64,000 nucleotides of DNA from Cheiracanthium punctorium. Lineage: Eukaryota > Arthropoda > Arachnida > Araneae > Cheiracanthiidae. Below, piece after piece: positions 29,226-54,800 of the stretch (positions are counted from its first letter, which is position 1; each line of letters opens with the position of its first letter). The stretch lies in the NCBI GenBank assembly GCA_038373885.1, contig JAWZYV010011619.1:806001-870000 (forward strand), given 5' to 3'. A program made the translations under genes and the position numbers. Under the pieces are notes generated by a model. The model did no database searches and had not been told where the DNA came from. It saw nothing but the letters and a program-made list of their open reading frames with translations.

Positions 29226-30011
29226 GAATTCCATGTAAAAGCAAACAAAAATACAGTGGTTCCACACGTTACATAGCGCTTATTGAAGCTGCTTAAAAGA
29301 AAACATGTGTTTAATATTACTTAGTAAACAGAAATGAAAGATCCCCCCCCCAGGCCAGCCATTGTTATTATATCAAAACAGTATAAAATGCATTGTCCTC
29401 ATCAAAGGGGAAATGCACAACTCTACACCATAGCTTTCAGACTCACAGCCTGAGATTTTGCCAAGGTAATGTGTTATATCCATAACTGTATTCTGGAAAG
29501 ATTAATATAAAATCCATGCATTATAGTAAATCCATGCATTACAGGATTTTGGAACTACATTTTAACTTGTTTCTTTGGTTGTGCAACATGTTTGCTTTGT
29601 GTGTTCTTTTGAATTTTTGACTTGTAAGTAAAAAAATTTTCCTTTTCTTTCCCATAGGTAAGGGGGAGTCACACCTCTGAGATTTGCCGTATGCAGTTCA
29701 TATTTTTAATTAATATAGAACGCATTTATAAATACCTTTAAACTGTTTAAATACTTTTATATTAATCTTTGCAGAATACAGTTATGAATATAACACATTA
29801 CCTTGGCAAAATCTCAGGCTGTGAGTCTGAAACCTATGGTGTAGAGCTGTGCATTTCCCCCTCTGATGAGGACAATGCATTTTATACTGTTTTGATATAA
29901 TAACAATGGCTGGCCTGGGGAGTCTTTCATTTTTGTTTACTAAGTAATATATATATATATATATGTGTGTGTGTATGTATATATATTATGACAATCGCTT
30001 TTCCTTGTTCT
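29152..30011. mobile_element. Foldback element with ~200-bp arms
   Basis: The left arm (starting AGAACAAGGGAAAGCGATTG, then (TA)n, then TTACTTAGTAAACA to about 29507) is repeated inverted on the right (about 29761-30011). The inner arms are more than 90% alike, for example CAGACTCACAGCCTGAGATT on the left. The left arm has about 100 extra bases (about 29222-29320) next to the (TA)n. The loop of about 250 bp has no coding capacity. Family and TSD are not identified. Confidence 0.85.
29179..29221. repeat. (TA)n microsatellite
   Basis: About 21 TA units inside the left foldback arm. The matching place in the right arm holds a mixed (TA)/(TG) tract at about 29947-29987. Confidence 0.95.
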
Positions 30012-31303: not shown

Positions 31304-32016
31304 ATCCCCATGCAAAAACCTTTAACTGGTGAAAAATTTGTGACGCAGCATTTTACTTTATAGCTCTATGAATTTTAAATATGGGTCTTAAAAATAATGA
31401 TATCAAAATTTGAGTGACGCCCTGCTGGTAATTTTAAAGATTTGTTTTTAAATTCCATTACAGTTACTTTCGTTTTATTTTCTAAAGAAGATTTACGCAT
31501 TTAAGCAATGCTTTTAATTATGAAATACACTGTCAAATATATCACACCTTCACTGAGTCTATAAAATGTATTCAAATGAATTTATTTCAATAATTTAATT
31601 TATCTTTTGCGTCACGCTATCCAAAAGGGCAAGCAAAATTTACGTAAATATTTAGTTAGTTCATAGTAACCAAACTAAGTGAAATGTATATGAAAATTTT
31701 GCTTGCCCTTTTGGATAGCGTGACGCAAAAGATAAACTAAATTATTGAAATAAATTCATTTGAATACATTATAGAGACTCAGTGAAAGTATGATATATTT
31801 GACAGTGTATTTCATAATTAATCTCATTGCGTCTTTAGAAAATAAAACGAAAGTAACTGTAATGGAATTTTAAAAAAAATCTTTAAAATTCCCAGCAGGC
31901 CGTCACTCAAAATTTGATATCATTATTTTTAAGACCCATATTTAAAATTCATAGATCTATAAAGTAAAATGCTGCGTCACAAAGTTTTAACCAGTTAAGG
32001 GTTTTTGCATGGGGAT
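31304..32016. mobile_element. 713-bp near-palindrome (foldback element)
   Basis: The left arm 31304-31641 and right arm 31694-32016 are inverted copies with only scattered differences and a 52-bp loop. The ends read ATCCCCATGCAAAAACC and its inverse. Near the loop the sequence TTTTGCGTCACGCTATCCAA is perfectly mirrored. There is no coding capacity. A transcript across it would form long double-stranded RNA (inference). No clear TSD is visible. Confidence 0.9.
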
Positions 32017-35471: not shown

Positions 35472-36482
35472 TTTCGCACGTGTTTTAATTCGATCAGATT
35501 AAGCAAGGCTAAACTGGTTCCATACACTTTCTATGGCTCTAAATCGAGGCTATAACAATCAGTGATGCCAGCATTACTGATAAAATGTGTCCTGTTCTGT
35601 TTGAAAATTTCGTCGTTGCATGGTAACTCGTGCATGTAGCTAGAGCCCGCGCGTTGAAAACAGGAGTGTGCCGAAGACTGTATATTTTATAAAAAAAAAC
35701 CCTATAATTTCCATTAGAAAACTGCTCAAGATAAACCGAATCGAAATAATCACCAATGTGCACTTCAACATTCATCTGGAAACATAACGCAAGTAAAAAT
35801 TATTAACTCGTGTGGGATTTCATTTAATTTCGAATAACTTAACTAAGCCGAAATGAGTCCCAAACCACCACAAACTTTCCCTTAAAAGAGCAGACCAAAG
35901 CATGTACTTCTTGTCAATTACAAGGAGGTTACTGCTACAAGATAACAAAACGCAATATGATGGTCCCCCTCCCCCCGCATTTTCGAGCTATGCCTATAAA
36001 TCCTAGCCATTTCAAGCTTCGAATGGTACTGTAATTGAACTGTCAGAACCTTGCAGATTGGCGATGGAACAAAGAGAGACAGGGGGGATATAGCACGATA
36101 TCGGATGTAACCTTGTAAATACGCCGGCCGACTAGCAACAACGTCGTAATTAGGGAAACAATCTTAACCGGGTGATTACGGGATTTGATTATGTGAGTTC
36201 GGGGTTATGGAGTAACTGCTATAGGAAGACATGATCTATGTCATGCAGGTTCGTTTTCAGTTGCTGGTGTCTTGTAATAGATTGATAAAGATATGAAAAA
36301 GGGTAATTTTTTCTATGCGGATGTTTTCTGAAAATTCTTTTTTTTTTTTTGAAGATTAACATTATGAAATTAGGTTTTTAATGTTTCGACTTTTGTCTGA
36401 TTTTTCATGCCACATTTTATAGATAATAATAAATCGAAATAAAAATCAGTAGGGGAATGATGTCGAACTAAAACTTCAAATA
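35472..36482. other. Spacer containing one copy of a dispersed repeat
   Basis: About 36010-36220 resembles 49735-49930 (shared GTAATTGAACTGTCAG, GGTGATTACGG and TTCAAGCTT blocks). Otherwise there is no gene; the 78-residue minus-strand frame at 35539-35775 has no recognised domain. Confidence 0.45.
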
Positions 36483-37008
36483 CGGATGTCTCCCAATGCC
36501 TTAGTGGGTTTGGAAGGCTTATAAAAAATATATTACCATTGCAGCAACGAAATTGACTTTACTGGAAAAATAAACATTACAAGTTTTGTTTCACAAATAA
36601 CGAGCTTCCTCTTGCTGGATTGGACGAGGTTCTGATGACGACATTCGCCTTATTCCGTGGCCACCTCCATCTACGGTCCTCCATGTCTAGAAATCTAACT
36701 CCATGCGGCTTTTGTTTTTATGGGGCTGCATAAAAGATCGTGTGTTCGTGCCCTCAGTGCCACGTGATTTACAAGATTTTCACCAAAGGATCATAACTGC
36801 ATTTGCTACCATGTAAAACCGAGTGTGCGAGTGTGGCAAGAATTTGGTTTGAGGTTTGATATCAGCCGCATCACGAAATATTCACATATTTGTGAAGCAA
36901 AACTTGTAACGTTTATTTTCCCAAGAAAGTCAACTTTGCTGCTGTATTTTGCAATATACTTTTTTTTAGAAGCCTTCCAAACCCAGGAAGGAATTGTGAC
37001 ACATCCTG
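36483..37008 (+). mobile_element. Deleted mariner-like element with ~115-bp TIRs, 526 bp
   Basis: TA flanks at 36481-36482 and 37009-37010. The left end CGGATGTCTCCCAATGCC and the inverted right end CAGGATGTGTCACAATTCC begin arms of about 115 bp; further in, GGGTTTGGAAGGCTT and ACAAAACTTGTAA are shared. It has the same architecture as the elements at 20550 and 39042: long arms enclosing only the transposase C terminus. Confidence 0.87.
36625..36905 (+). pseudogene. Mariner-like transposase, C-terminal fragment
   Basis: Frames read RVFVPS and DLQDFHQRIITAF, then RVWQEFGLRFDISRIT and KYSHI, comparable to the C-terminal RVWQELDYRLDVCRVT..AHIEHL of this transposase group. A degraded TPCGFCFYG-like stretch stands where TPCDFFLWG is expected. 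Stops and frame changes are present. The open frame beginning at 36825 covers only the last 26 residues of similarity and then runs into the TIR. Confidence 0.72.
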
Positions 37009-39041
37009 TATTATTCCTGAATTCAAAAAGAGGCTTAAAATCCTGAAGTTAACAGAGAGACTTCTTTGGATCTTTGTGTTCGAAACAAAAAGTTTCAACA
37101 ATTTCATCTTCAGCTAGAAGATGGAGAAATATTTAAAAAAAATGAAAAAGTTCTTTGTCGTCTTACGCCTTGATTATTTTGAAGAGCTAACAATAGGCAT
37201 AGATTATCAAGTAATGTTTATTTTCAGAAATGGGGAGAAACAATTTCATTTAGGTAGTTAATCAAAATGACACAGGAAACACAAAGGAAAATGATGACAT
37301 ATCCAATGGCCAATACTTCGAGCGTTAGATGTGTCGAATAGCTCATCGACAAGTGCCCTATATTGGAGTAAGATATGTTTTCATGTAACACTACAACTTA
37401 TATTTTATAGTGAATTTACACAATACATGAAATACTTTTGCTGTAGACGAAATATAAACTAATAATAAGAAATTCGTTTAATTAAAAAATGTATATTGTG
37501 CGATTTTAAATAGAAGAGATGCAATTAACCATTTTCAAATTTAATAAAAATTAAACTTTTAATGAAATTCTAAATATGGTAATAAAAAACTATTTAATAA
37601 ATATATAAGTGGCTTAAAATTTAGTAAAACTCGAAATTTTTCATTTTTAATCTGCGGTATATGTGCTATTTTACTGGGTACTTTGATAAAAAATACTTTT
37701 AATATCATCTAAGAGAAATTGATTTAGTATTTAAAAATTTAAGTAGATTATAAAATGGTCGGTAAATAAACGATAATACTTATGCATAGTGCTACGACAT
37801 AAACAATCTTCATTTACGAAAATTTTAAGTAGTTTATCGTATGAAAATACGTGAGTACTTAATGAGCTAATTAACAAACCAAAAATGCACTATAAAATTT
37901 TTTTTCATCATAATGAATTACAATTTTTAATAAAATGGGATATATATACTTAAAATGCAGATATATATATGATAAGAGTTATTTTTTTTCCTTCAGATTA
38001 TAAATGTAATCTTTAAAAGCAAGCAAAATAACTGCATGTTAAGTATAGAATAAATTTATTTTAATAAATTTTTAATTTTAAAATGAAAAAAGGAAAAAAA
38101 AATATTTCAGAATCTCTTTCAAATAAAAAAAAGTATAAAATTACGCATGAGCAACAACATTCATAAAACTTTCATACTGATTTTGTTGGCCTAAAATTAA
38201 AGGAAGAACACTTTAAAAAGCAATGATATGATCATAAAAAACGCTAAAACATGGAGTAAAGTAATAATATGAGTGAATCAAAAGTTACTTTTTATTACTA
38301 TATAAAACAAATTTATAATCACTCAAGAAGAAGTATGTTACCAAAAAAAAAAAAAAAAAAAATGGTTTTGTAACTTCTGCAGATAGAGAAAGGCTTTCCC
38401 TTTGACTGCTTTTCCTTTTTAGCAGCAATGATGAATTTACACAGATAAGTTCACTAAAACAATGTTTATCATTTATTCTTTTTAACTTTGAAGCTCTTAA
38501 GTACAAAATAAAGCTTAAACCAAAGATAAATTAGCCCTTTAAAATATTTACGTTTAAAAAAAGTTTTCAGGCATTACTATAAAGTTTTTGTGGATTTTTT
38601 ATGTACTAGTACCTGAAAGAGTAAAAGAAATTGAAATTGCAACGTTTTTCTCCTTTATTTTGATGCATTTTCAATTTAATGAAACAAATCTCACTCGCAA
38701 GAAAAGTAATTTTCTTTAGTGAAAGATCACAAGCTTATGATTTTTAAAAAAATTTTTGATAATACAAATAATATTTTTTTTCTGAAAAAATAAACGGGTA
38801 TTTTGATTGATTGCATTTCAAGTAATTATTATGATTAAATCTTTTAGTCCATGTTATTAAAAAAGCAGTTTCATGTATAGATGAAATCTCAATTACATTC
38901 ATTATTTCCACTTATTATCGGCCTCAAACTCAGAGAGAAATAAAAGTACAATTTAACTTTTATATATTCCAACCTATAAAATAATTTTGAACATTTCACT
39001 AAAACCATTTCTCATGGCACTAAAAGAATACGCTAAATATA
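37009..39041. other. Very AT-rich stretch, no gene seen
   Basis: Poly(A) at about 38343-38361 and long A/T-biased tracts. No gene or element identified. Confidence 0.45.
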
Positions 39042-39229
39042 CAGGGTGTACAAAAAGTCCCTGACACATTTCAAAATTAAATATAAAATCAACTGATTGG
39101 GTTACGAGATTGCGGTTTGTACCAAAATACTTCCAATGATGAAAAAGTTTTGTTTAAGCAAATTAAAAAATAGTTCGAAATTTCACCCAAAGATGACGCT
39201 GCTTGACCTTGCATTAAGTTGAAATGCGT

Positions 39230-39446
39230 ATTTCATTTGAGACTTAACCCCTATCGATTTCTTTCTGTGGGGTATGTGAAGGATAAAGTGTAATCCTCTC
39301 CTGTGGCTGATATCGAAGAAACGAAGAGGCGAATCACACAGGTAATTCAATCAAAACAAGCAGTGCTACCAAATGCGTGGAGTGAAATTGAGTACTGTTT
39401 GGATGTGGTTGGAGCTACATCAGGTGCACATATTGAAGAATGGTAG
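39230..39446 (+). pseudogene. Mariner-like transposase, C-terminal fragment
   Basis: One frame reads PIDFFLWGYVKDKV, the catalytic PCDFFLWGY.K..V block, and continues through ADIEETKRRITQVIQ to CLDVVGATSGAHIEEW and a stop. A TAA follows KDKV. Only the last 70 or so residues of a roughly 350-residue transposase remain. The ending HIEEW replaces the usual HIEHL. Confidence 0.85.
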
Positions 39447-40524
39447 CAGGTTATGCTTGTATCTGCTTCACAAAATAAAAATGCTGAATATTTAATGGTG
39501 ATTTATGTTTTTACTGTTTCTACAGCTATAGGTGAAATTTGGAACTATTTTTTTTTATTTGCATAAACAAAACTTTTCATCATAGGAAGCATTTTGGTTC
39601 AAACCGCAATCTCGTAACCCAATTAGTTGATTTTATATTTAACCTTTTACATGCCAATGTTCCTTTTTTAGAACATCATGTTTAATATTTTTTTAAAAAA
39701 TAAACTGTCATAGCTATCAGTTTGAAAAAAATACTGCTTATTATTGAAAGTGTGATTGATTTTTTGATATATTAAGCATTTTCCAAATTTAAAAATTTCA
39801 GCCCAGAAAAATTTCGAAAAATTGCCTTTTTTTTACAATTTTTACAGTGTACAAGAAAAAAAAATTCTTTAAAATTCCCAAAAATTCAAATTAACCCGAA
39901 AATTCCCCTATTGTATTTCCAATGGATGAATTCAAAGAAATAATAAAAAAATTCAAAATATATCAAGGTATCTTTTCTCAATCTTGCATAAAAGTGCAAT
40001 GTTCCAAAAAAGGAACACTGGCCTGTAAGGATATATGAAATCAGGGATGCCTCATGTATGTGCTGCTTGTGTTCCTTTATTAGATTTTGATACATTCAGT
40101 GCTTTTATCTGCTGAACATAAGTCTGTCAAAGGCATAACCGATATTTTATTTATTTTTGAAGGGTGAAGGACTAGAGGGGGAGGGTGGGGTGTAAGGGGG
40201 AAGTTGTCATATCTTTTTTACCCCTTTGCCAGAAGGAGGTAGATAGTTAGTACTGCATTCCTCTGATTTGAGCTCAGATAGCTACTTGTTTCTTCTGTTG
40301 GTAATGAATATGTGCTTCAAAATAAACAAACAGGGTTCGTTTGTTTATTTTAAGTCCTTTTTATGTAGAGGGAACTCATGGGAGGAAGTGACATCAAGTT
40401 ACATGCTTGATTTTCTTCCTATGCTCTGCAACTTTCGAGGCCATTTCAGTAAGAACTTGCATAGATGTTTGTAGAAACAATATATATAGATGGTGCAGTC
40501 GAAGAAATTTCTAACTATAGACAA

Positions 40525-40665
40525 TGTCGGATGATTGAAATAAGTCAATCATAGAAATTTGTCAATTGCCTCTTGATGAAAACGGGTGCATTACTGATGA
40601 AGAAAAAAATTATAATAGTTTTGAGCCGATTACACCTGGAGACGTGTGGACAATAGAATTTTAGA
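40525..40665 (+). pseudogene. piggyBac-like transposase N-terminal remnant
   Basis: A plus-strand frame reads QLPLDENGCITDEEKNYNSF and then EPITPGDVWTIEF before a stop. This resembles the acidic N-terminal region of piggyBac transposases (known form: LPP...LTDEE......DV.GTVEI). The catalytic domain and the C-terminal cysteine-rich domain are not found. It supports the assignment made from the TTAA and the terminal repeats. Confidence 0.6.
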
Positions 40666-41228
40666 AGAGAAATTAGTTTAAATTTGTTTCAGACGAAGCC
40701 TAATGTCAACATCACCCTGTGCTCATCAATGGAAATCTGAAAAAAAATCGGATGCACATGACGTTCTTACATGATAAGGGCATCATTTTTTAGTATGCCA
40801 AAAAGAAAAAAATACTGTAAACGTGTGTTTTGAATGCAAGAAAAAAAAAAACAGCTAATAAATTATAAAAAGAAATTAGTGTTTTAGTGGGTTTTTAAAA
40901 TTTTTGTGATGCCGGTTGAAATTCTAAGCACCCTCTAAAGAATAAAATATTTTATTATTTCTTGATCAAGTAGCTGACATTTTTAAAACTGCATTTGTTT
41001 ATATTATCTGTATTATTAGTCAAGAGTATGCAAGCGTAAAATTGCTTTTATCATTCTTTTATACATTTATGCATTGCATTTCTTATAAAATACTATGCTA
41101 ATTTTAAAATTGCAATTGTTTTATTTGAGTTTTGCTTAAATTTTAGTCACTTCGCACTTAATTATCAACTAAAACTTTATTCCTGCATAAAATTTTAGAG
41201 TTATCATACAGCGTTTTGTTGTTTACAT

Positions 41229-41519
41229 TGTAGACACTAAACATTTCTTAATGCTAATATTTCTTTTATTATCACACATTTTTGACACGAGCACGATTAA
41301 TTATATTGAGAGTGTAATACAAATTCACTGGTGGCAACGTATAAGCGATGGTATTTAAAAATAAGAAAATTATTAGAAAAAGAAAAGTACGTAGTGTGTT
41401 GTATAAAATTCAAGTTACGGTATATGTATGAATTAGTTCAAGTTTACGCTGTACGTTATGTTAGAAATAAATGTTTTGTTTTGTCTTTAATACGTTTACG
41501 TTAGTGTGTTGAGCTAACA
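41229..41519 (+). repeat. 5' LTR of the gypsy element
   Basis: Starts TGTAGACACTAAAC and ends GAGCTAACA (TG...CA). It differs from the 3' LTR at two positions that I can see: GTATAAGCG against GTAAAAGCG, and CAAGTTTACG against CAAGTTAACG. Both LTRs are 291 bp. It would carry the promoter for the genomic RNA. Confidence 0.95.
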
Positions 41520-41520
41520 A

Positions 41521-41534
41521 TTCAGAAGCGGGAT
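41521..41534 (+). other. Primer-binding site, tRNA-Leu-like
   Basis: TTCAGAAGCGGGAT begins two bases after the LTR. It resembles the complement of a tRNA-Leu 3' end, whose complement usually reads TGTCAGAAGTGGGAT or similar. The first bases do not fit perfectly, so the primer identity is an inference. Confidence 0.55.
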
Positions 41535-41659
41535 AAACTAATTCAGATTTTACGATAAGATAAGTAAGAGAAGATAAGTTACGATAAGAAAATAGTATAA
41601 GTTCTATTTTTTTCAAGTGTACGTTTAAATACGAATTCGTTTTTGAATTAATTAAGAAA

Positions 41660-42188
41660 TTGAACATGTCTCTGTTTGGAAAAGCAAAGAAGTGTGACTT
41701 AAAAGTATTAGCCGAAGAGTTAGGTGAACAAGTTAATGACGATCTCAAAATGAGTGATCTGAAAAAAATGATTTTGGCAAGTAAAGAGTATGACGAAAAC
41801 TACGCCAAGGAATGGTTAGCTACGATAATTAATGTGCGAAAAGATAGAGAAGAAATGGCAGAAAAATTACGGCGAGAGGAAATGGAAGAACGTAAACGTA
41901 AGGATGAGATGGAATTTGAACTCCAAAAATTACGCATCGAAATGGAAGGTAGAGCTGCAATTCCTGTCGCCAATCAAAATGGTACTAGTGTACAAGTGAA
42001 ACCAAAATTGGAACTCCACCACTTGATGCAAAAATTTAATCCAGATGAAAGTGATATAGGCTTGTATTTAACAATGTTTGAACGCTTAGCCAAACAAGCA
42101 GATGCGCTTGAAAATACGTGGGCGAGTCATCTACTAGGATTGCTGCCATATGATGTTGCCCAATTAATCGCCAGAGAATCAGATGAAA
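41660..42188 (+). pseudogene. gag: gag, first part
   Basis: Starts at the ATG of MSLFGKAKKCDLKVLAEELG. A charged coiled-coil-like stretch (about residues 60-95, rich in E, K and R: KLRREEMEERKRKDEMEFEL) is followed by a retroviral-type gag segment, LMQKFNPDESDIGLYLTMFE, and WASHLLGLLPYDVAQLIARE. Gag forms the particle that packages the RNA. The frame is lost at a 13-bp tandem duplication (42176-42188 and 42189-42201), after which this frame stops at 42199 and the protein continues in another frame. Confidence 0.9.
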
Positions 42189-42812
42189 GAATCAGATGAA
42201 ATAGCAAGTGATTATAAAGAAGTTAAAAAGATATTGCTGCAACGATACAAGTTAAGGCTAGAAAAGTTTCGCCAAAAATTTTTCACGCATAGCAAGAATA
42301 GTGGATGCACGTGGAAAAACTTTGCATATGAGTTAAAAAGTTACTTTAATGAATGGATAAGCGGTGTTAAAGTTGATACCTTTGAGAAATTAAGTGATTT
42401 AATTATTGCAGATCAGATAAAACGCAAAGTAACACAAGAAATTAGAGATCATTTTATTGATGACTGTCCGAAATTAATATCGCCCGATCATTTAGTCGAA
42501 AAACTGGACGATTATGAAACTGTGAGATCAACTTTCAAGAACAAGCAACCACGTAAAGAAGGGCATTTCGAGAAAAAGAGTCATTTCAAAGATGATTATG
42601 TTGTTTCGACCAACGAAAAGAAAAGGTTATACAGTGCAACTCATAATGAGAAAAGAGAGCCAAAATGCTTTAACTGCAATTTTTAAGGACATATTTCTAA
42701 GGACTGCCCACAACCGAAAGTCGTCATAATCTGTCGTAGATGTGGAAAAACTGGACATAAAGCAAAGAGCTGTACGGCTAAGACTGAAAATAATAATTCA
42801 AACGAAAAAAGC
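42189..42812 (+). pseudogene. gag: gag, second part with CCHC zinc knuckles
   Basis: Continues the gag core (ASDYKEVKKILLQRYKLRLE) and runs to two CCHC knuckles. In the first, CFNCNF is followed by a TAA stop at 42684-42686 and then GHISKDC, so the stop falls inside the knuckle. The second, CRRCGKTGHKAKSC, is intact. Knuckles bind the RNA. The apparent start at 42183 lies inside the duplicated segment and is not a real start. Confidence 0.88.
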
Positions 42813-43514
42813 TTGTCCGTTACTCAGGTTGGAGGACGTCCAGATCAGTGTGCAAAATATTTAAAGGAAGCAAAAATAAATGACTGTGGAAAAGTTGAGG
42901 CTCTTGTAGATACAGGGAGTTCTTGTTGTCTGTTAAGGATTTCAGTCGCTCAAAAACTCGGATTGAGACCCAAACCTACTGTTAATGAACTATATGGTTT
43001 TGGAAACCAAATCACTCCTGTAGTAACTGCCATGGGAAAGATTGAAGCCGATATTGAAGTTGATAACGTAAAAGGTCAAAATATAAATATATACATTGTT
43101 CCTGATGACGCACAACCAGTTGATCTTTTAATTGGACGGTCATGGCTTGATCTTCCATACATCGCCTATGCTAGAATTGGAAATACATTTCATATCGCGT
43201 ATCATGAAGATGAGCCTTTTAGAAATTTATTAATTGATGAAAAAGTAAATCGCATTTCTCTCAGAACTCTTGAAACAACTACATTAGAGAAAAATACAAT
43301 CAATCTTGTCAGTTCTCAGACCGATTTTATTGACAATGGACTAATTTTATTTGAAAACTTTGAAGTCGGTTATCTACTGGAAGTTAAAGATGGAAAAACG
43401 TATATACCTGTGATGAATACGGGAGATGAAAATGTCATGCTTCTTAAGGACCAGTGTGTTGGTAGAGCAAACATGGTCGAGGATTTAAATGCTGAAGGTA
43501 GCGAAGAAGTTTAA
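42813..43514 (+). pseudogene. pol: Aspartic protease and linker of pol
   Basis: The protease active site is ALVDTGSSCCLLR (DTGS, about residue 32 of this open stretch), followed by the flap and a DLLIGRSWLD segment, the ILG-type motif near the protease end. It cleaves Gag-Pol in the particle. It is in the same frame as the gag second part and as the RT that follows, so Gag-Pol was probably one continuous frame here. A TAA at 43512-43514 now ends it before RT. Confidence 0.9.
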
Positions 43515-44522
43515 AACGATCCACCTAATTTACGAGATATAAAAGAAAAGACCCCCATAACTTTGAATGAAATCAAGATTGACCAAACTATTGAAAGTGA
43601 GAAGAAGCAAGAACTGCTTAATTTGTTAAATGACTATAGAGACTGTTTTGCACTGAATATTTCTGAGCTAGGATGCACAACAATAACAGAGATGGATATT
43701 AAGGAAATTCACGGATCAAAACCCATATGTATGAAGCCATATAAAACGAACGCCTCTCAAAGAGCTGCTATAAAAGAAATTGTGAAAGAGTGGAAGGAAA
43801 ATGGAATTGTGTCGGAAACAAGATCTCCGTATGCAAGTCCTGTCATATTGGTAAAGAAGAAGACTGGCGAAAACAGATTGGTTGTTGATTATAGACGCCT
43901 TAATAATCAGACTGTTAAAGATAAATTCCCTTTACCTAAGATAGACGATTTGTTGGAGCAGTTACATGAATGTAGCTATTTTACTACACTGGACTTCGCA
44001 CATGGATACTTACAAATACCTTGAACCGAAAAAGCAAAGCTGAAAACAGCTTTTATAACACCAGATGAAACAGGACAGTTTGAAAGAATGATTTTTGGGT
44101 TAACAAATGCTCCGGCGGAATTTCAGCGTTTGATGTATCACGCATTAGGGTCATTATACAACAGGGGTGTATTATGCTATCTGGATGATATACTTATTCC
44201 AGCAAAAACTTGGAACGCTATGATCCATAAATTAACCGACGTATTTGAAGTACTGCGTTCCGCAAATTTAACTTTGAAATTACCTAAATGTGAATTTGGA
44301 AGGAAAGAGGTAGAATACTTAGGATTTGTTATCAATGAACGCGGGATGAAGCCTGGGTTCAGGAAAGTGGAAGCTATATCGAAGTTTCCTCAACCTAAAA
44401 ACATACATGATGTACGAAGATTTCTTGGCTTGACTTCTTTCTTTAGACGATTTATTCCGAATTATGCTACGAAGGCGAAGTTTCTGACTCAACTTACCAA
44501 GAAGAATGCACGTTTTAAATAG
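43515..44522 (+). pseudogene. pol: Reverse transcriptase domain of pol
   Basis: Motifs in order: SPYASPVILVKKKTGENRLV, VDYRRLNNQT, FPLPKIDDLLEQL, TTLDFAHGYLQIP (first catalytic Asp), MIFGLTNAPAEFQRLM, CYLDDILIPAKTW (the YLDD pair), then LGFVINERGMKPG and the connection VRRFLGLTSFFRRFIPNY. All catalytic aspartates remain. A TGA at 44022-44024 cuts the fold just after GYLQIP, and a TAG at 44520-44522 ends it at the RNase H boundary. The open stretches that start at 43563 and 44088 are two halves of one domain. Confidence 0.95.
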
Positions 44523-45202
44523 AAAAAGGGCAAGAAGAATCATTCGACACTTTAAGACGTGAATTGACAAATCAACCAATCTTAGCCCTCTATATTCCTG
44601 AGGTAGAAACGGAAGTTCACTGTGATGCATGTACGGACGGAATAGCTGGCATGTTGTTTCAACGTGGAAACGATAACAATTTGCATCTGGTGTACTGCGT
44701 GAGTAAAAAGACCACAGAAACTGAGAATAAATACCATTCGAGTAAGCTTGAATTAATGGCAATTGTATGGACACTTGAACGACTAAGACAGTTTTTGTTG
44801 GGTATCAGTTTTACAGTAGTAACTGACTGTCAGGCCTTAGTTTATATGAATGCAAAAAAATCAAGTAACCCTCAAATTGCTCGTTGGAGTCTCCTCATTC
44901 AAGAATTCAATTTTGAAATTCGCCACCGGCCAGGTGTCAAAATGTCTCACATCGATGCTATCAGTAGAGCTCCAGTTTTGAATCCTACGGATACACTAGA
45001 CTCCCTGATAGAAAACAAGCTTGAAGTATGCCTAACATTGAGTATAGAAGACCAAGTTCTTATGATGCAGCAAGCAGATGAAACCTTAAAAGAATTAATA
45101 GAAATTCTCAAAAAAGATAAGGGTGAAAGAAGTCCAGAAGAAAATAATAAAGTCGATCATTATATTCTCAAAGGAAATAGACTTTTTCGGGTAATCAAGT
45201 AA
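44523..45202 (+). pseudogene. pol: RNase H domain of pol
   Basis: After a 1-base loss near 44531 the frame resumes as EESFDTLRRELTNQPILALY. It then shows VHCDACTDGIAGMLFQRG (first Asp), KYHSSKLELMAIVWTLERLR (Glu), TVVTDCQALVYM (Asp) and FEIRHRPGVKMSHIDAISR (His and Asp), the usual RNase H set. It removes the RNA strand during cDNA synthesis. A TAA at 45200-45202 separates it from the integrase in the same frame. Confidence 0.93.
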
Positions 45203-45572
45203 GATAGAAAGGAAAAACTCTTGTACGTTTTACCGAAAAGTATGAGGAAGAGTACGGTTGTAAAATTTCATGACCTCATGGGACATTTTGCAGAAGACAA
45301 AACGGTATCGAAGATCAAGGAACTATATTGGTTTCCATCAATGAAAAGATACGTTCGTCGACATATATCAATGTGCTTCGAATGCTTAGTCAATAAGGTA
45401 CCAAGTGGTAAGAGACAAGGTCTTCTCCATCCTATTCCAACTGGCCGTAGACCTTTCGCTATTATACACTTAGACCACCTTGGTCCATTTGTAACAAGTA
45501 GTAAGAGAAACAAGGAATTACTTGCAATTATTGATAACATGACGAGATTCGTACGCCTTTATCCTGTCAGAG
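45203..45572 (+). pseudogene. pol: Integrase, N-terminal part (interrupted)
   Basis: The zinc-binding HHCC domain is present: HDLMGH, then ISMCFECL, with the expected spacing. It leads into the catalytic core up to IHLDHLGPF (first catalytic Asp) and IIDNMTRFVRLYPV. Here a 2.1-kb P-like element is inserted, with GTCAGAG on both sides. The open frame running on to 45634 reads into that insertion. The core resumes at 47718. Confidence 0.95.
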
Positions 45573-45631
45573 CGGGGTCGCCGCGACTGAAGAGAGGAGA
45601 AAGCAAGAGGGGGTCTGGGTACTGGTTTTCG

Positions 45632-46255
45632 TGACGTCACAAAAAAGGATGGGATTTGGAACAGTTTGCATTGAGTTCAATGGAAGAAATGGAATTAATA
45701 ATGCCAATAAATACGAGTAGCTTAATTTTTTATGACGCATTGAAATAGCATTTTCGTTTTACAACACTTTGTTCTTAAATAATAGTGAATCAACAATATT
45801 TTGTGTCAGAAATTAATGAAATAAATTGGTACTGAATTTAAAGCAGTTTCAGCATTGTATGCAGTATGTTTTGCATTTCGGGCTAGCAAATACATTCTAA
45901 ATAATATAATGGTTACTCAATGTTATCATTTATCTAAAATAATATGTATATGGATTAAATTTATACGTTGTATAAGCGTAAAGTCATATTTTTACGTAAG
46001 TAAAAGTAAATATATTTTTAAGTAAAAATAATAATTTTTATTAATTTTACTTAAAAACTGAAATACATTATTTAGTTTTGCTTTTTTAATAAGCTTTTTG
46101 AAAGAATTGATGTTAAAAATATCCAGATTCATAAATAGTCATCTCAAGCCATTTCGTGACGTCACAAGAGAGGATGGGATTTCAAAGAGTTTGTATTGAA
46201 TTCTATGGAAGAAATCTGATCAATAATGTCAATAAACACTAGTAGCACGAGGAAT
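45632..46255. repeat. Duplicated subterminal block of the P-like element
   Basis: About 95 bp at 45632-45725 (CGTGACGTCACA, AGGATGGGATTT, AATGCCAATAAATAC, AGTAGC) recurs at 46156-46245 in direct orientation (CGTGACGTCACAAGAGAGGA, AATGTCAATAAACAC, AGTAGC). The inverted right end (about 47585-47635) carries the same TGACGTCACAAGAGAGGATGG. The second copy suggests an internal duplication, or an older solo end of the same family into which this one grew. Confidence 0.8.
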
Positions 46256-47031
46256 ATAATCAGAAATTTCCACAATTAATATTTTAAAAACTTGTACAAT
46301 ACATTCTATATATAATTATGTTATACAGACTCCTAATGTCAAATTTTATTAGAAGCAATTAAAGCACAAAAAACAAGAAAATAAAAAGTAAAAGCTTTTA
46401 TTAACCAAACCTTACAAATACTATAAAGTTTTTCATGAAAGCCCTACAAGTGTTTGCTTTAGTTTTTTCTAGATAAGACTTTCAAATATCACATTGAGAC
46501 ATTTGAAATATACATAATTAAATATTTTTAAAAATTAGTGAGTATAACTCTTGAATATGTAAAACTGCCTAAATGCTCTCAGGGGTTTTCATGTAAAATA
46601 TATTGCAGTAATACATATACTTTTCTGTTATTGTTGTTAGCATTGCAGTAATACATTTTCTTTTTTGAGTTAATTTCCAAATCTGTGTTCATACTTAATT
46701 TCAGAACTTTCAACAAATTCCGGTAAACCGTTTAGTTGGAAATATTTCTTTAATAAATACCTTCTATATTTTTGTTTTTCTAAGTATCCAGCAAATAGAT
46801 TTCTCTCTCTCTCTCTTTTTTTTTTTAAATAAATAAATCAACCATGAAATCCGCATTGAACCTTAAGCTACTTGGTATGTGCAGTGGAAGGGGATCTGCG
46901 TTTAATTTATAATTAATGGTGAAATTTTCTTAACATAGAATTGCCATGAAACTCTTGATACATTTCTTAATTTGAAAAGAATTTATATTTTCCTTTGCAT
47001 TATTTTTTTCGGTTTCCTCAATATCTTTTTC

Positions 47032-47395
47032 CTAAACGTTTTCTCTTCTTTTAGTAGGATCAGTCATTTCTTGTTTTTTGGTAATATCGGATATACAGGC
47101 TGGTAAGCTCGAAAATATGCACGGGATAGCATTCGGTTCTAATTTATAATGCTTTCTTTTTACAGTTAAAAGTGCCCCATCTGATTTTAAAATAGCATCG
47201 TCTTTTAAAAGATCTTCATCTCGGAAATGCTCAATACAAACATACATATTTTTTCCTGGGGACCAACTTTTTCTTGGAATATTTTTAGTCCATTCGGCCC
47301 TCTTTTCTTCGTTTTTTGGGAAAAGTGAAAACATTTACATTTTCTCCTCTTTTGTAATTAGCTTTACTTACAGCCTGGGACGCAGCAAACGGAAG
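47032..47395 (-). CDS. THAP-domain protein fragment, probably frameshifted at its N terminus
   Basis: Minus strand. The 100-residue open frame begins MFSLFPKNEEKRAEW and contains IPRKSWSPGKNMYVCIEHF (C-x2-H half of the C2CH zinc site with its Phe), then NAIPCIFSS, equivalent to the AVPTIF box that ends a THAP domain. The first cysteine pair is upstream in another frame: CCVPGCK at about 47385-47365, then NYKRGENVNVFTFPKN in the frame of an upstream extension. One indel therefore separates the zinc ligands unless splicing joins them; the bases there read GTAAGT, a splice-donor consensus. THAP domains bind DNA and form the N terminus of P-element transposase. The frame ends about 25 residues past the box with no catalytic domain. 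Confidence 0.75.
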
Positions 47396-47717
47396 CATAG
47401 TGATTGCTAGAACAAAAGAACAGAAATCAATAAAACTAACACAAAATACGGCAATTTTATATTTTTATGTACTCTATAGCTTAATAACTATCATCAAGTA
47501 TGTCGTATTAAGAATAGAGATTGCTGACTTACCATTAGTATCCAAAAAAGGCACAAAACATCTTAGTTTCTTCTACTTTTCCGTATGATTCTAATGCTTT
47601 TAACGGAGAAAAGTCCATCCTCTCTTGTGACGTCACAACACCTCCACGCGTTCAGTACCCAGGCTCGCCTTGTAATTGTCTACTCTCGCCCTCCCTTCCC
47701 GGGGGCTCCGGTCAGAG

Positions 47718-48412
47718 ACACTTCAACCAAGATTGTTCTAAAATCATTAAAGGACTTCATTCAAGATTTTGGATTACCGGATCGTTTAATTTCAGATCGA
47801 GGATCATGTTTCACCTCACACGAATTTCGAAAGTTCTGCGATGAAAATGGTATTATGCACACCTTAAATTCTACATCACATCCACAAGGGAATGGAATGT
47901 GTGAGAGAGTGAATAGAACGATTTTATCTACGATCATACCTTCTATCGAAAAGATCAATCAGAAGGATTGGGACAGCAAAATTAAGGATGTAGAAAGAAA
48001 CTTGAACAATACGGTGAATAACACTCTTGGAAAAACCCCTTTTGAAATACTTCACGGATATGTACCACGATTTAAAGATGAAATATTGAGAATATTAGCT
48101 GATGAAAATGCTCAAGTTTGGAATGACCCAGAAAAACTACAATCCAAAGCTAAAGAAAAAATTAAGATGGAACAACAGAAAATGAAAGCACATTTTGATA
48201 AAAAGAAGTCTGGCACATTACTATTTGATAAAGGAGAAATAGTTGTGGTAAGAAGAAATCCAAAAGCAACCGGTGAGCCAACAAAAACTCAACAAACGTA
48301 TCGAGGACCAATGGTTGTGACAGACGTACTACCTGGTGACACATATAGAATATCGCAGTTAGAAGGAAGCGACGGTCACCTATATGCAACAACAGCTCAC
48401 AGCTCATATTAG
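47718..48412 (+). pseudogene. pol: Integrase, C-terminal part (resumes after insertion)
   Basis: Continues the core: FIQDFGLPDRLISDRGSCF (second catalytic Asp), HTLNSTSHPQGNGMCERVNR (catalytic Glu in CERVNR), TPFEILHGYVPRF, then the C-terminal GPY/F-type module with YRGPMVVTDVLPGDTYRI. The Met at 47585 lies inside the P-like element and is not a natural start. The frame stops at 48410-48412 because of a 7-bp duplication (48393-48399 and 48400-48406). Confidence 0.95.
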
Positions 48413-48557
48413 CCAGCTAAACGCCTGGAGGAGCTGGAATGACGATTGCAGTAGCTCGAGTGCAGATTCAGATGAGGAATCCGAAAGTCAGAGGCCTAAA
48501 CGAACTGTCCGAAAACCGTTGCGTTACGGTAATGAGAGTTCAACTGAGGACAGTTGA
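48400..48557 (+). pseudogene. pol: pol C-terminal tail in a shifted frame
   Basis: Past the 7-bp duplication another frame reads WRSWNDDCSSSSADSDEESE, then QRPKRTVRKPLRYG, ending at a TGA at 48555-48557, only 18 bp before the 3' LTR. An acidic/serine stretch followed by a basic RPKR...P.RY tail is a common end of gypsy integrases without a chromodomain. It shows where the original frame ended. Confidence 0.8.
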
Positions 48558-48575
48558 AATGCCAGGATGGCCGAA

Positions 48576-48866
48576 TGTAGACACTAAACATTTCTTAATG
48601 CTAATATTTCTTTTATTATCACACATTTTTGACACGAGCACGATTAATTATATTGAGAGTGTAATACAAATTCACTGGTGGCAACGTAAAAGCGATGGTA
48701 TTTAAAAATAAGAAAATTATTAGAAAAAGAAAAGTACGTAGTGTGTTGTATAAAATTCAAGTTACGGTATATGTATGAATTAGTTCAAGTTAACGCTGTA
48801 CGTTATGTTAGAAATAAATGTTTTGTTTTGTCTTTAATACGTTTACGTTAGTGTGTTGAGCTAACA
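48576..48866 (+). repeat. 3' LTR of the gypsy element
   Basis: Copy of the 5' LTR, with two differences in 291 bp. It is followed directly by the TSD ACAT. A clear purine-rich tract before it is not visible (the preceding bases are CCAGGATGGCCGAA), which is unusual or mutated. Confidence 0.95.
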
Positions 48867-49101
48867 ACATGAAGCAAATACAGAAAAGGAAAGATAGCGT
48901 TACATGCCAATGTTCCAAAAATCGGACATCCAAGAAATCAGTTAAGGAAATTTTTTAATAGCAATTTTTTTTGCTTTATAGTCATTATGGGTGTATTCTA
49001 ATGTAATTTTGAAGAATTAATTACATCTTTTATTCCTGGATAATAGTGCGGCATTTAAAGGGTTAATTTTGAAATGTGTCAGGGACTTTTTGTACGCTCA
49101 A

Positions 49102-49730
49102 TATATATTGAAATTCTACGAGGAAAATTTTTGGACTTATGCTTTGTGATTGATTTTTGAATTGCAGCTATAAACCTAATGTAAAGTGCACAAAATAGTT
49201 ATTTTTAATGAAAAGCAAATTGAAAAAGGGCCAGTTTTAAATGAAAGTGAACCAATATGTTATAAAATATAGTGTTATCTATTGAATATATAGTTCTTTT
49301 AAATTGGTTTAAATTATAAACCAATGCATCAAAACTGATATTGAAGTCCCAATAATTTCTGTAACACCTTCAGAATAAAAAGGAAGCGTAAGGAAAAATC
49401 TCAAGAATCTATAAATTTGTAAAAATCATAAAGGAAAAACATTTTTCGATCAAAGCATTTCTAATTAAAAATGAAACAAAGATTTTATAAAGTTTCAAAA
49501 CTTACAGGCAAGGAAAAATTCTACAATATGAAATCGATAGCTGATGCAAAACAGTGAAAATAAATAGAAACAAATTCCAACAAGAAACACCTGTTTGTAA
49601 ATCTGCTTCTTAAAACGAAGGAAAAAAAAAAAAGATTTAGCGATATACGACTGCCAATAATAAAGACAATTCTTCAACAGACAAGAGCTAAATGAGCCCT
49701 CCTCATTTCAAGGCGCACCTGTAAATTTAC
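49102..49730. other. AT-rich spacer
   Basis: No gene seen. A poly(A) run lies near 49622. Confidence 0.4.
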
Positions 49731-49734
49731 AGAA

Positions 49735-49930
49735 TTTCAAGCTTGACGGGGTATTGTAATTGAACTGTCAGGAACTTGTAGATTGCCGGTGGAACAATGG
49801 AGGAAAGGATGCCGATATAACACGATATTGGATCGAAATTGTTAAATAGGAAGTGCACTCGGACAACAACATAATTATAGGGAAGAACACTAAAGGGTGA
49901 TTACGGAATTCGATTATGAGTAACTGCCAC
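49735..49930. repeat. Dispersed repeat, partner of 36010-36220
   Basis: Shares TGTAATTGAACTGTCAG, CACGATAT and GGGTGATTACGG, in the same order and orientation, with about 36010-36220. No frame or TSD is visible. It is probably an old mobile-element fragment. Confidence 0.6.
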
Positions 49931-52069
49931 GCAGCGGTTGTTTCCTGCAAGCAGAAATTGTGTTGCTTCCCAGAGATTATTGAGCGGCATTTGTTGGCAC
50001 AAGGCGTTGGTTGGATGTTTCCGACTAGGAAATGTTGTTATGCGTTCTGCCCCACCAAATCAGCAGCGGCATCGAAAATATGTCGTTTGGATTAGGTATT
50101 GAAAATTAGCCGCTGTTACTAAGTGAACAAGAATCTGGATATTTAATTAAATATTGTAAATGGTACTACGAAAAATAAGGAAGAAAGTGTGACTGTTTGG
50201 TTTAGCTAATCTCTAGAAACTACAAAACAATTATAGTTCGTATTACAATCGTTTTTCATAATTCAATATTATTTTGTTTTAGAAAAAAATTGTATATGTC
50301 TGTATTTTTTTCGCATATTTTTAAGTAGAATAAATCAGTGTTTCGATTTGTTCTATTTCTATTCAATTAAAACGATGTATATGCATGTCCGCAAATGTTT
50401 TTTTAAATTAGAAACTTAGTAATAGAGAAAGTGTAAAGTAGAATATTATTAAAAATATAACTTACATTACATTATTTACATTAATTTCCAAGTTATTATT
50501 AAATGGGTAAAATAAGGAATTATCGGTCATAACCATTGAGACATAAACTAAACAGGATTGATGGCTTGGTAATAGTCTACATTGTGAGATTTCGAACCCA
50601 CTAGGGGTGGTTAGAATTCCCAGAAAGTGGTAGAAAACCGTGCTCCGTGTAAATCATTTAACCACATTTTTGTAAACAGTAACTTTCAATTTAGAAACTA
50701 GCAAAAAAATTGATCAACGTGTATGGTTTGTTAGAAAATGCTATTTTAAAAAGTGGTAATTATGGCTCCGTACAAGTTGACTGCTACGGATATCTTTTGC
50801 CACCTTTTTGGGGATTTTAGCCATGCCCAGACGGCTCGATAAATCAGACCAAGACAGCATTTCAGCTTGGAATATATATAAATGGTCATAAAATGCAGCA
50901 TAAAAGCTTGGATTGAGGTAAGGCACAAGAAATACATTAAAGCTCTGTATCTAAGGATACAAATACAAACTACTTTCAAATATTTATTTGAATATTGTGA
51001 ACAATTTTCATTTGATGGGTTATATAGAATTTCCTCAGTAAATAATTATCTAAAAATTGATATAATTTATTTTAAATACGCACTTTAAATTGTTACATAT
51101 TAAAAATGCATCATAATCTATGCGTCAACCTCATTTGTCTTTCTAGTTTCATTAAGTTGGAAAGTGTGTCGTAATCCATGCATCGACACTGTTTGATTTC
51201 TTGTTTCATTACTTTGAAGTAAAGTTTTTGTTAAGAATCGAATTGTTTCAGAATGTTTTTTGATAGTAAAAATATGCTTCGGCTAATCATAATCCATGTT
51301 TCAGCACTATTTGAAAAGTGACATAAAACAACATCGTTCGTAGTTTATAAGGTTTAAATAAAATGAACTCTGACGTGTATGTCTATGGGAAAGTAATGTC
51401 TTTTTTTTCATAAAATTTAAACAAATAAATTTTCAACAAGAATCATATTAAAAAAAAACAAAAAACTGTGCATAAGTATGAAACTCTTATTTGATAATTT
51501 TTAAAGCCAGAATTTTATAAATTTTCTTTCCAGAAAAATGGCTACCCTCCCCTTTTTTCAGATCTACCTTCCTTGGATGATTATATTTAAAAGGGTTCTG
51601 AAATCGATTTTTAGGGATTCATGAGTGTTGTATTTGGCAGCAAGAATTTTGAGGATATCTCTCTTCTTCTTTTTGAGATCAAGCAGAATATGTGAAAAGG
51701 ACTTTTCGTCCCCCCCATCCCCCTATAAATTACGAATTTAGGAAAATGCTCTCCAATTTAGCATCTATGCTAATACATCACGCGCGTGCGAAATTTCATG
51801 TTATTAGCTTCAACAGTTTTGGCTAGGCAAACTATTTCCATGCAAAAAAGGGACATAACTTTACCTTAGACCTAATAGTATTAATTATAATGTGTGAAAA
51901 ATATCGTCACCAATATTTTTGCCTAAGACTATAAATTTTGAAATTTAAAATAGCAAAAAATCACATTAAAAACAATTTTTAATTACCTACACGAATTCAG
52001 CAAAAAGAGAACTTGCTTTAGAATAAAATCCTCAAACTGTAGAAACTTTCGTTGAAGATTAAAATTTGA
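49931..52069. other. AT-rich sequence, no gene recognised
   Basis: Overlapping short frames near 50741-51088 have no recognisable domain. Around 50600-50640 a TTTCGAACCCAC stretch looks like an inverted B box but lacks an A box at the right distance. Confidence 0.4.
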
Positions 52070-54800
52070 TCACCATTCCTATGACATTTCTTGGCAAGCC
52101 GTCATTACTGCAGTATTAATCAGTAATTGTCTCGCAAGCTACGGCACACTGGGCAGGAAATCTCAGACCCAAGGGAGTTCTGTAAGCGGAGAATGCTTAT
52201 TTATTACTGTGGATCTTATTATGATTGGGAACCCAGCACAATGAATAGCTGAAGGTAATTACTTTTACGGTGATACAGAATTATGATTTGCATGGAGAAA
52301 AGCAATAAGGAGAATGCTTGGATGTTAGATTCTTTGAAAAGCTCTGCCTCGAGGGTATGTATAAATGAAGAACTGCAAATATTTTTCTGCCGTGAATCTG
52401 AGTAGATGAAGCTGCGTAATTATTTTGCAGCTAATCGTTCGGATGTTAATGGTTACACAAGTTGCGAGTTAGGATTCATAAATTGTAATATTTAGTACAT
52501 ATTGTAGCATTATGTATATGAAAGAATATTTTGTATTGAATTGTTAAGAATGGAGTACGAAATTATTGTTATTGAATTGATAAATAGGGGGTATTTTTCT
52601 AAAGAGGGAAATACCAATACAGAATTGCAAGAAAATCATTTCTATTTCCCCCATTACAATACAGGTATAATCAACAGGAATTATTATTTTATGCTAAAGA
52701 ATAAAGATATTTCAATTATTTAAATTAGTATGAAACAGTGAAAAATTGTATCTTTAGATATTTCGTACAAATTAAACCTTTTCAAATTCATTTCCGTTTT
52801 AAATAATGACATACACACTTCAAAGAGAAACAGAAAACTAATAAAAAGAGAATTACATTAAGAATGCAGATGTTTATTTATCATATCTTTAATTAACATT
52901 TGAAAAAATAAAGCTTTTACAGTCGCCTTAAGTTCGTAACCACAAAAATTATGTTCCAAGCATTTATTAGAATGAATTGCTCAACAAAGTAGCGCTTTCC
53001 TACGACTTAAAATCGAGCCCTTAAAGCCCTTAGCATTTCTAGTTCCAGTAAAATTAATTCAAAATTAAAGTTTATGCAACATTATTATGATGCATACTTG
53101 AAAAGGAATATTATTACAAAATTAATTAGAAATAGATTTTAAAAGCTATGGCGACACTGACTCGAGTCAATGACACAAAGGGAAGATATTTATACATTGT
53201 AATGGGCATCATTACAATTGCTCTCCTGCGAATTGAATAAATATAATTACTTTTATTATGATACTCATTTATGATATGCATCAAGAAAGTAATAAATACA
53301 ATTTTGCTTGAAGATTGCATGAAGGTCTCTGCCATAAGGATATGTATGAACGAATTAAGGAAATATATGATTAAAGAATTACAAATATATTTCACAGTTC
53401 CTGTAAAGCTAAAAACTAATTCTTTTGCAATAATATTAATCTGGGGAATATTATTAACCAATGAAATTTCTAGGAACTCGTTTTATATCCGATTACTATA
53501 AACTAAATTTCAGAAAAATCATTCCCGTATGTTACATTCCATAACATTGTTAGAAATCAAGCCTGTAAATGCCAATTGGGATGGGATAATTTGATTTATT
53601 TAAATTATAATATTTTCAAAGATATAAAAATCCACACTTATATGCTTTTGTTATCTATATTTTGTAAATTGAAATTAATGATAATATATTGATTTTCTTC
53701 TGAAAAATACTTCACTGAATACCCGACAGGTAGTGAAGAGGTATAACATATTTTTAATATTACACGCAAATTAAATATCAAGAAAATATTAAATACTCTT
53801 ATACTATCCCTTTGAGGCACAACCCTTTCCCAATGCTGAAAAAAGGGCAGTCGTTGCCATCGCTCAACTTAACTACCAGCAAGATGGCGGACGATCGGAA
53901 CGTTCATCCCGTGTCACAGATCTAGAGACCCTTTTTTGAGGACAGCTGGATGTGCGCTGGCAATGGCTGCCCTTTTTTCAGCATTGGGCAATCTATCCGG
54001 ATGTTCCCGCATTCTTCCATTTTTCAGCAGATGTCAGAGCTGTTCAAAATAATCGTGACCATTTTTTTACGGGAAATGACGTGCAAAAAAAGTAAAGGAT
54101 TCTCGTGGAGCTCTGTCACCCGCAACTATTTTTATAGAAACGAAATCTATTCTTCGTGACTGGTGACTGTCAAAACGTCAGAGTTTGGTGATCCCAGAGC
54201 GGGACCACTGAGCCTTAAAGGGTTATTTCAGCGTTGAAAAAGTATTTACGATTTAGACATTTGCCGAGTAAGTTTACCTTAAGATTGCCAATTAACAACA
54301 TCACCAAGTATGCTAAAGTTAATTTTTAATAATATCTTTAAAAAGATTGGAGTCTCTAAATTCTAAAATAATTTTGAATTAAGAATCACAATAAGATTTT
54401 AGAAAAGATATTCTAAAATATATAATCTACTCACCAAACCAGAATTTGTCAATTATTAAAATGCAGTAGTGGAATCCCAAAGTCTGCAGTCCTTTGTTCC
54501 AGATTAAAATTTGAGCAACATTCTTATGACGTTTGCTGGCAGGTCATCATTATTATAAAATTAATCAGCAATAGGCTAGAAAGTTATGGCAGTGCTGGCT
54601 CTGAAATCTCAGACCCAAGGGAGTTCTGTAAGCAGAGAATACTTATTTATTGTAGCGAATCTTATTATGATTGTACTCCAGTGTAGTGAATAGCTGAAAG
54701 TAATTACTTTTACGGTGATATAGAATTATGATTTGCATGGAGAAAGTAATAAGGACAATGCTAGATGTAGAAAAGTTTTGCCTTGAAGGCATGTTAATCA
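52070..54800. repeat. Three diverged copies of an approximately 280-bp repeat
   Basis: Copies at about 52070-52370, 53060-53340 and 54505-54790, all in the same orientation. Copies 1 and 3 share TCTCAGACCCAAGGGAGTTC, TAATTACTTTTACGGTGAT and AGAATTATGATTTGCATGGA. Copy 2 is far more diverged (TATGATACTCATTTATGATA, TTGCTTGAAGATTGCATGAA). The piggyBac-type MITE at 53808 sits between copies 2 and 3. The minus-strand frames over these copies are not conserved between them, so they are not coding. Confidence 0.65.
53808..54222. mobile_element. piggyBac-type MITE, copy 2 (415 bp)
   Basis: Homologous end to end with 11074-11480. It starts CCCTTTGAGGCACAACCC and ends GCCTTAAAGGG. The flanks are CTAT and TTAT, possibly a drifted TTAA. 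The internal inverted pair CCCAATGCTGAAAAAAGGGC and GCCCTTTTTTCAGCATTGGG is perfect here (20 of 20), so this copy keeps the stem better than copy 1. The 69-residue frame inside it is not a gene. Confidence 0.82.

Follow-up and report, generated by a model that had tools for sequence, protein, structure and literature searches.

Four mobile elements, each lying within the next, occupy positions 39042-49101 of the window, by which we mean the whole 64,000-nucleotide stretch of Cheiracanthium punctorium DNA that was analysed. From the outside in they are a mariner-like element, a piggyBac-like element, a Ty3/gypsy retrotransposon and a P-like element (Table 1). Our results confirm this nest: all four layer boundaries are exact, each with its own target-site duplication (TA, TTAA, ACAT and GTCAGAG, respectively), and two junctions, that of the mariner right arm at TTAA and that of the integrase at GTCAGAG, carry internal proof in the interrupted sequence itself. 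A first-pass annotation had proposed four elements, four target-site types and a nested layout, all of which we find where it placed them, and its coordinates for the outer element are correct to the base.

Table 1. Positions of the nested elements and their target sites in the window.
Feature	Position	Strand	Remarks
TA target site, left of mariner-like element	39040..39041	.	
Mariner-like element, left part	39042..39642	+	left arm of about 155 nt, interior, first part of right arm through TTAA
TTAA target copy, left	39639..39642	.	
PiggyBac-like element, left part	39643..41228	+	starts CCTTTTACATGCC, closes with ACAT target copy
ACAT target copy, left of gypsy	41225..41228	.	
Gypsy 5' LTR	41229..41519	+	TG...CA, 291 bp
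Gypsy interior, part 1	41520..45572	+	gag-like region, zinc knuckle, protease, RT, RNase H, integrase start
GTCAGAG target copy, left of P-like element	45566..45572	.	
P-like element	45573..47710	-	2138 bp, ends of about 110 nt, related but imperfect
ORF with partial THAP domain	47032..47334	-	Pfam PF05485, E 3.3e-12, profile positions 20-87 of 87
GTCAGAG target copy, right of P-like element	47711..47717	.	
Gypsy interior, part 2	47711..48575	+	remaining integrase core and C-terminal part; Pfam rve E 9.3e-11, PDB matches
Gypsy 3' LTR	48576..48866	+	291 bp
PiggyBac-like element, right part	48867..49062	+	ACAT at 48867-48870, inner motif TTACATGCCAATGTTCC at 48900, terminates GGCATTTAAAGGG
Mariner-like right arm, outer end	49063..49101	+	starts with second TTAA copy
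TA target site, right of mariner-like element	49102..49103	.	

The outermost element has TA on both sides, a two-base match that in AT-rich flanks is weak alone, and the outermost six bases of its two ends agree at only two positions. Inside these, positions 39048-39080 are identical at 33/33 bases to the reverse complement of 49063-49095, and the exact match continues into an aligned stretch of 121 columns. The window contains 245 pairs of exact inverted 25-mers; in nine of them the arms are separated by over 1 kb, and all nine belong to the mariner-like match. When the two pieces of the right arm are aligned to the left arm (1-based numbering), the piece ending at 39642 covers positions 36-154 and the piece starting at 49063 covers positions 7-39; they overlap by exactly TTAA. 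The arm alignment needs TTAA once, consistent with the proposal that the mariner halves meet at TTAA/TTAA.

The piggyBac-like element spans 39643-49062, its second TTAA copy lying at 49063-49066. The CC...GG ends attributed to it are present as short inverted repeats, CCTTTTACATGCC and CCCTTTAAATGCC (reverse complement) being alike at 11/13 positions. The 17-mer TTACATGCCAATGTTCC occurs at two places in the window, 39647 and 48900, one on either side of gypsy. Its second copy falls within the right end, and at the left the outer end has an inner copy as well (39647-39676 against 39999-40028, 90% over 30 nt); these repeats could be taken to mean that the layer consists of two separate short elements, at 39643-~40031 and ~48899-49062. 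We regard this as improbable, since neither inner copy has TTAA adjoining on its outer side. With the outer TTAA copies the mariner arm is reconstituted exactly, which requires a single event and a single pair of ends. PiggyBac elements are known to carry inner repeats close to their termini.

Within the piggyBac-like element lies the gypsy element (41229-48866), flanked by ACAT on both sides as had been annotated, and with LTRs identical at 289/291 positions (two differences). Its Pfam domains follow the Ty3 order, protease - RT - RNase H - integrase, and each of the two integrase pieces has a match in the Ty3 polyprotein (PDB 7q5b). The first part of the interior contains the zinc-binding domain and the start of the integrase core, terminates with GTCAGAG, and is broken by several in-frame stops and frame changes. 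The RNase H piece yielded 48 protein matches, of which nine are named Araneus ventricosus (62-86% identity, 52-99% query coverage) and the other 39 come from insects, a pseudoscorpion and unnamed sources. The left integrase piece matches an A. ventricosus protein (P0046) at 87%. The gypsy sequence thereby indicates that the host is a spider; compared with the Ty3/gypsy elements of that spider, the present copy has broken frames and a P-like insert.

That insert interrupts the integrase core. The GTCAGAG duplication agrees at 7/7 bases and does not extend to the next base in either direction; the word occurs at eight places in the window in total, so it is not rare by itself. In alignments to PFV integrase the left piece stops at residue 163 and the right piece starts at 165, and on P0046, which lacks the insert, the left piece runs to R212 and the right piece begins at D213. 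The integrase pieces thus abut at one residue, and the THAP-bearing P-like element is found inside the integrase, between its two GTCAGAG copies, as the first reading had it. The similarity between the ends of the element reaches a score attained by 0/2000 shuffles, and GTGACGTCAC is present in three copies, at 45631, 46156 and 47627. The insertion site in the integrase has an apparent palindrome by eye, TGTC-AGA-GACA, which was discounted, its centre being one base off that of the 7-bp duplication.

Misjoins in an assembly typically arise at repeated ends and at LTRs that are nearly identical, and the junctions might be artefacts of joined repeats. We consider this extremely unlikely. A misjoin is not expected to leave target duplications (TTAA, ACAT, GTCAGAG) precisely at the termini of the elements, nor integrase pieces that meet at a single residue of an uninterrupted relative. 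Given the base composition of the window, agreement by chance between two given places has a probability of 0.006 for a 4-mer and 0.00013 for a 7-mer. There is no hint of a fifth, enclosing layer in the repeats within 36000-39300 and within 48900-52500, each flank taken alone, and comparison of 38000-39041 with 49102-50200 gave no repeat pair beyond the mariner arms.

The superfamily names given in the first-pass annotation hold to different degrees. From its Pfam domains, the retrotransposon can be assigned firmly to Ty3/gypsy. The P label is likely, because of the THAP remnant and the 7-bp duplication, target duplications in the P superfamily being 8 bp, or 7 bp in Galileo. A six-frame Pfam scan of this element detected no P-type catalytic domain, THAP being the sole family above the cut-off and CBF falling below it (E 0.13). 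One search for relatives of the THAP piece gave no candidate and another gave 10, none at E up to 0.001; in PDB it has four matches with E no higher than 1, one to THAP2, two to THAP1 and one to an unrelated enzyme, and P-element transposase is not among them. The mariner and piggyBac labels derive from ends and target sites, because the scanned parts contain no transposase domain. For the piggyBac-like layer, six frames of 39643-41228 gave no Pfam family, the 196-bp right part lying outside the scan. For the mariner-like left part, neither a Pfam family nor a transposase domain was found in three plus-strand frames and three peptides, and the peptide at 39207-39446, which in its motif resembles the end of a Tc1/mariner transposase, had no credible match in PDB. 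All three DNA-transposon layers look non-autonomous, because their scanned parts lack a recognised catalytic transposase domain. The open frames and domains examined give no sign of a function of the block's own, and a layer-by-layer BLAST against the window revealed no second copy, just weak matches of 62-71%.

The nest is probably best explained by insertions at this locus one by one, from the outside in. A mariner-like element of ~636 bp at a TA target would have taken up, at a TTAA within the right arm, a piggyBac-like derivative of ~1.8 kb; this in turn would have received the Ty3/gypsy retrotransposon, whose integrase gene would have taken a P-superfamily-like element of 2.1 kb in which the THAP remnant is broken. 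The boundaries, the restored arm at TTAA and the continuous integrase at GTCAGAG are directly visible. That every insertion took place at the present locus, in succession, is the simplest reading, although nesting does not force it, since an element can also be mobilised or copied together with its load. The first-pass annotation went too far here in claiming a strict relative chronology whose order was direct observation: nesting gives pairwise order only, the host element being older than the arrival of its guest, and what is observed is the nest, from which the order has to be deduced pair by pair.

At least one inner insertion may thus have happened elsewhere, in which case the outside-in order at this locus would be wrong for that step. 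Gypsy could have entered the piggyBac-like element before the latter, loaded with gypsy and perhaps also with the P-like element, entered the mariner-like element; alternatively, the P-like insertion could have occurred in a gypsy source from which the present copy was then reverse-transcribed. Such histories predict an identical structure with an equal number of insertions, the piggyBac-like ends are present, PMC1794594 regards it as plausible that nested elements transpose, and the REANNOTATE paper (PMC2672092) gives mobilised nests as one origin of chimaeras. The decay of gypsy bears on the same question. Four stops, with their ends at 42686, 43514, 44024 and 45202, separate ORFs that share a frame, and a fifth, ending at 44522, lies at a frame change. 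From LTRs differing at 2/291 sites, 0.89 new stops are expected, and the probabilities of at least three, four or five are 0.085, 0.030 and 0.010. The stop ending at 43514, between protease and RT, might be older; without it P = 0.085. The excess over the LTR-based expectation is weak and no more than suggestive; it hints that the gypsy copy stems from a source that was broken beforehand, but does not bear directly on the P-like element. Frame changes are not in excess (at least three have P ~0.42), and no second copy of any combination of layers was found in the window searched. We hold a history with loaded elements to be rather unlikely, and retain stepwise insertion at the locus as the preferred reading. 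If movement of loaded units did occur, the four-layer nest records an order different from that which its nesting suggests.

That transposons nest, and that nests can serve as relative clocks, has long been known, and the present nest is an ordinary but clean example. TinT, REANNOTATE (PMC2672092) and TEnest order nested elements by interruption, and according to Table 1 of PMC1794594, 785 of the 5,390 annotated elements in D. melanogaster Release 4 are in nests, counting inner and outer members. The same interruption logic applies here, to one locus with four superfamilies. Our literature search found no publication on this locus, which does not prove that there is none. With its exact junctions the four-superfamily nest offers a clean worked example, showing that nesting yields pairwise order only, unless empty sites are found in relatives; its layers are also usable as a presence/absence marker set in spiders.

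The P-like element shares features with two known kinds of P-superfamily element. Galileo, of the P superfamily in Drosophila, has a THAP domain and duplicates mostly 7 bp, in some cases 8 bp, of target, with the consensus GTANTAC (PMC4168063), and its terminal repeats are unusually long (PMC3688188). THAP and the 7-bp duplication are thus common to both, whereas the element described here has the target GTCAGAG, imperfect ends of ~110 nt and no catalytic domain that we could find. The P-MITEs of Anopheles gambiae (PMC1562414) are AT-rich elements of 205-2450 bp without a transposase of their own; their duplications measure 8 bp and their interiors bear no relation to P. Like them, the P-like element is AT-rich, of a length within that range, and would be a P derivative without its own transposase; it differs from them in its 7-bp duplication and THAP remnant.

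The four nested layers that the first-pass annotation had placed here, among them a gypsy element between ACAT copies and, within its integrase, a THAP-bearing element between GTCAGAG copies, were borne out when positions 38001-50000 were read directly, repeats were sought, each layer was blasted against the window and each junction was measured.

Boundaries of the four nested layers, outermost first (window positions)
Layer	Position	Length	Ends and flanks
Mariner-like element	39042-49101		TA on both flanks
piggyBac-like element	39643-49062		starts CCTTTTACATGCC, ends with reverse complement of CCCTTTAAATGCC; TTAA copies either side
Gypsy LTRs	41229-41519 and 48576-48866	291 bp each, 2 sites different	ACAT outside both
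P-like element	45573-47710	2138 bp	GTCAGAG at 45566 and 47711

The left arm of the mariner-like element aligns to the reverse complement of two separated right-arm pieces, the first ending at 39642 (left-arm positions 36-154, 1-based) and the second starting at 49063 (left-arm positions 7-39, identity 33/33). As had been claimed, these pieces meet at TTAA: they overlap by exactly those four bases, the target duplication of the piggyBac-like layer. Exact inverted 25-mers form 245 pairs in the window, and the nine pairs whose arms are separated by over 1 kb all belong to this arm match. Only two of the outermost six bases of the mariner-like ends agree, so that, judged from the sequence, one end has drifted. 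Without its guest the element measures, by arithmetic, about 636 bp, which could not hold an entire transposase gene as well as the arms, and it is therefore a shortened derivative. The peptide at 39207-39446 presumably resembles the end of a Tc1/mariner transposase; Pfam and PDB searches returned nothing credible for it.

The two piggyBac-like ends are alike at 11 of 13 positions, and the 17-mer TTACATGCCAATGTTCC, present at two places in the window (39647 and 48900), flanks gypsy with one copy per side, which ties the two piggyBac-like pieces to one family. A six-frame scan of the left part (1.6 kb) against Pfam gave no family, and the second layer is called piggyBac-like here and is probably non-autonomous. 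Its left end (39647-40028) includes, about 320 nt inward, a 30-nt inverted copy (90% complementary) with no TTAA adjoining the outer side of that copy.

The third layer has the Ty3/gypsy domain order (protease, RT, RNase H, integrase), and its RNase H piece has 48 protein matches at E up to 0.001, 9 of them named Araneus ventricosus at 62-86% identity. Judged from this mobile element, the host is probably an orb-weaver or closely related to one. The gypsy frame is disrupted by in-frame stops, four at the least, and changes two or three times; the third change, near 48363-48412, is supported by the match of the gypsy tail to the protein P0001.

Since GTCAGAG is found at six further places in the window, its weight here comes from where it stands, at either end of the P-like insert. 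In the printed alignments to PFV integrase, the left integrase piece stops at residue 163 and the right one starts at 165. Against P0046, an Araneus ventricosus protein that lacks the insert, the left piece aligns as far as R212 and the right one continues at D213; by this alignment P0046 is the empty site in a relative, seen without joining the two integrase halves. The ends of the P-like element are imperfect but related, with a score reached by 0 of 2000 shuffles, all base-by-base. Three copies of the GTGACGTCAC palindrome (45631, 46156 and 47627), found nowhere else in the window, may be where a THAP-type transposase binds; the first two sit inside a 95-nt direct repeat (84%). An ORF of the element holds a partial THAP domain (Pfam, E 3.3e-12, profile 20-87 of 87), which is broken, because its first cysteines are, on inspection by eye, in a different frame. 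No P-type catalytic domain was found in six frames, a search for relatives of the THAP piece found none, and in the PDB the piece matched THAP2 and THAP1 rather than a P transposase. In Galileo, a branch of the P superfamily, the copies described in one source have mostly 7-bp target duplications (PMC4168063); the 7-bp duplication here fits, whereas the target sequence differs.

The strict relative chronology that had been claimed does not follow. Nesting shows every host element to predate the entry of its guest; it does not imply that the host was already at this locus. Gypsy may have been aboard when the piggyBac-like element arrived, or the P-like insert may have been part of the gypsy RNA. 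Transposition of nested elements is treated as plausible, both for retroelements, via RNA of a nested copy, and for DNA elements whose ends have sequences lying between them (PMC1794594); in the account of REANNOTATE, nests that were mobilised are listed as one origin of chimaeras (PMC2672092). The stops in the gypsy frame exceed the 0.89 new ones predicted from the LTR pair (P ~0.03, or 0.085 if one of the stops is older), as if gypsy had been copied from a broken source, which leans weakly toward arrival of a loaded element. The frame changes show no excess. Parsimony by insertion count cannot choose between the routes, as the number required is equal in each. Stepwise insertion in place, in which the outer element would have come first and the guests one after another, is in our view still the likeliest course of events, because it does not require long loaded units to have moved.

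Nested elements are established as relative clocks (TinT; REANNOTATE, PMC2672092), and in D. melanogaster 785 of 5,390 TEs are members of nests (PMC1794594). The four-layer locus is a clean new example and not a new kind of thing.

Elsewhere in the window, at 36484-37006, lies a further element with inverted repeats, about 520 bp long (arms 86-87% complementary, TA adjoining both sides), which has the look of a miniature element of mariner type. A 136-aa frame at 21562-21972 on the minus strand, without a Pfam match, carries a motif that we take to resemble a Tc1-type transposase end. Two long near-palindromes with exact inverted stretches, at 29348-29920 and 31337-31983 (about 570 and 650 bp), are probably miniature inverted-repeat elements.
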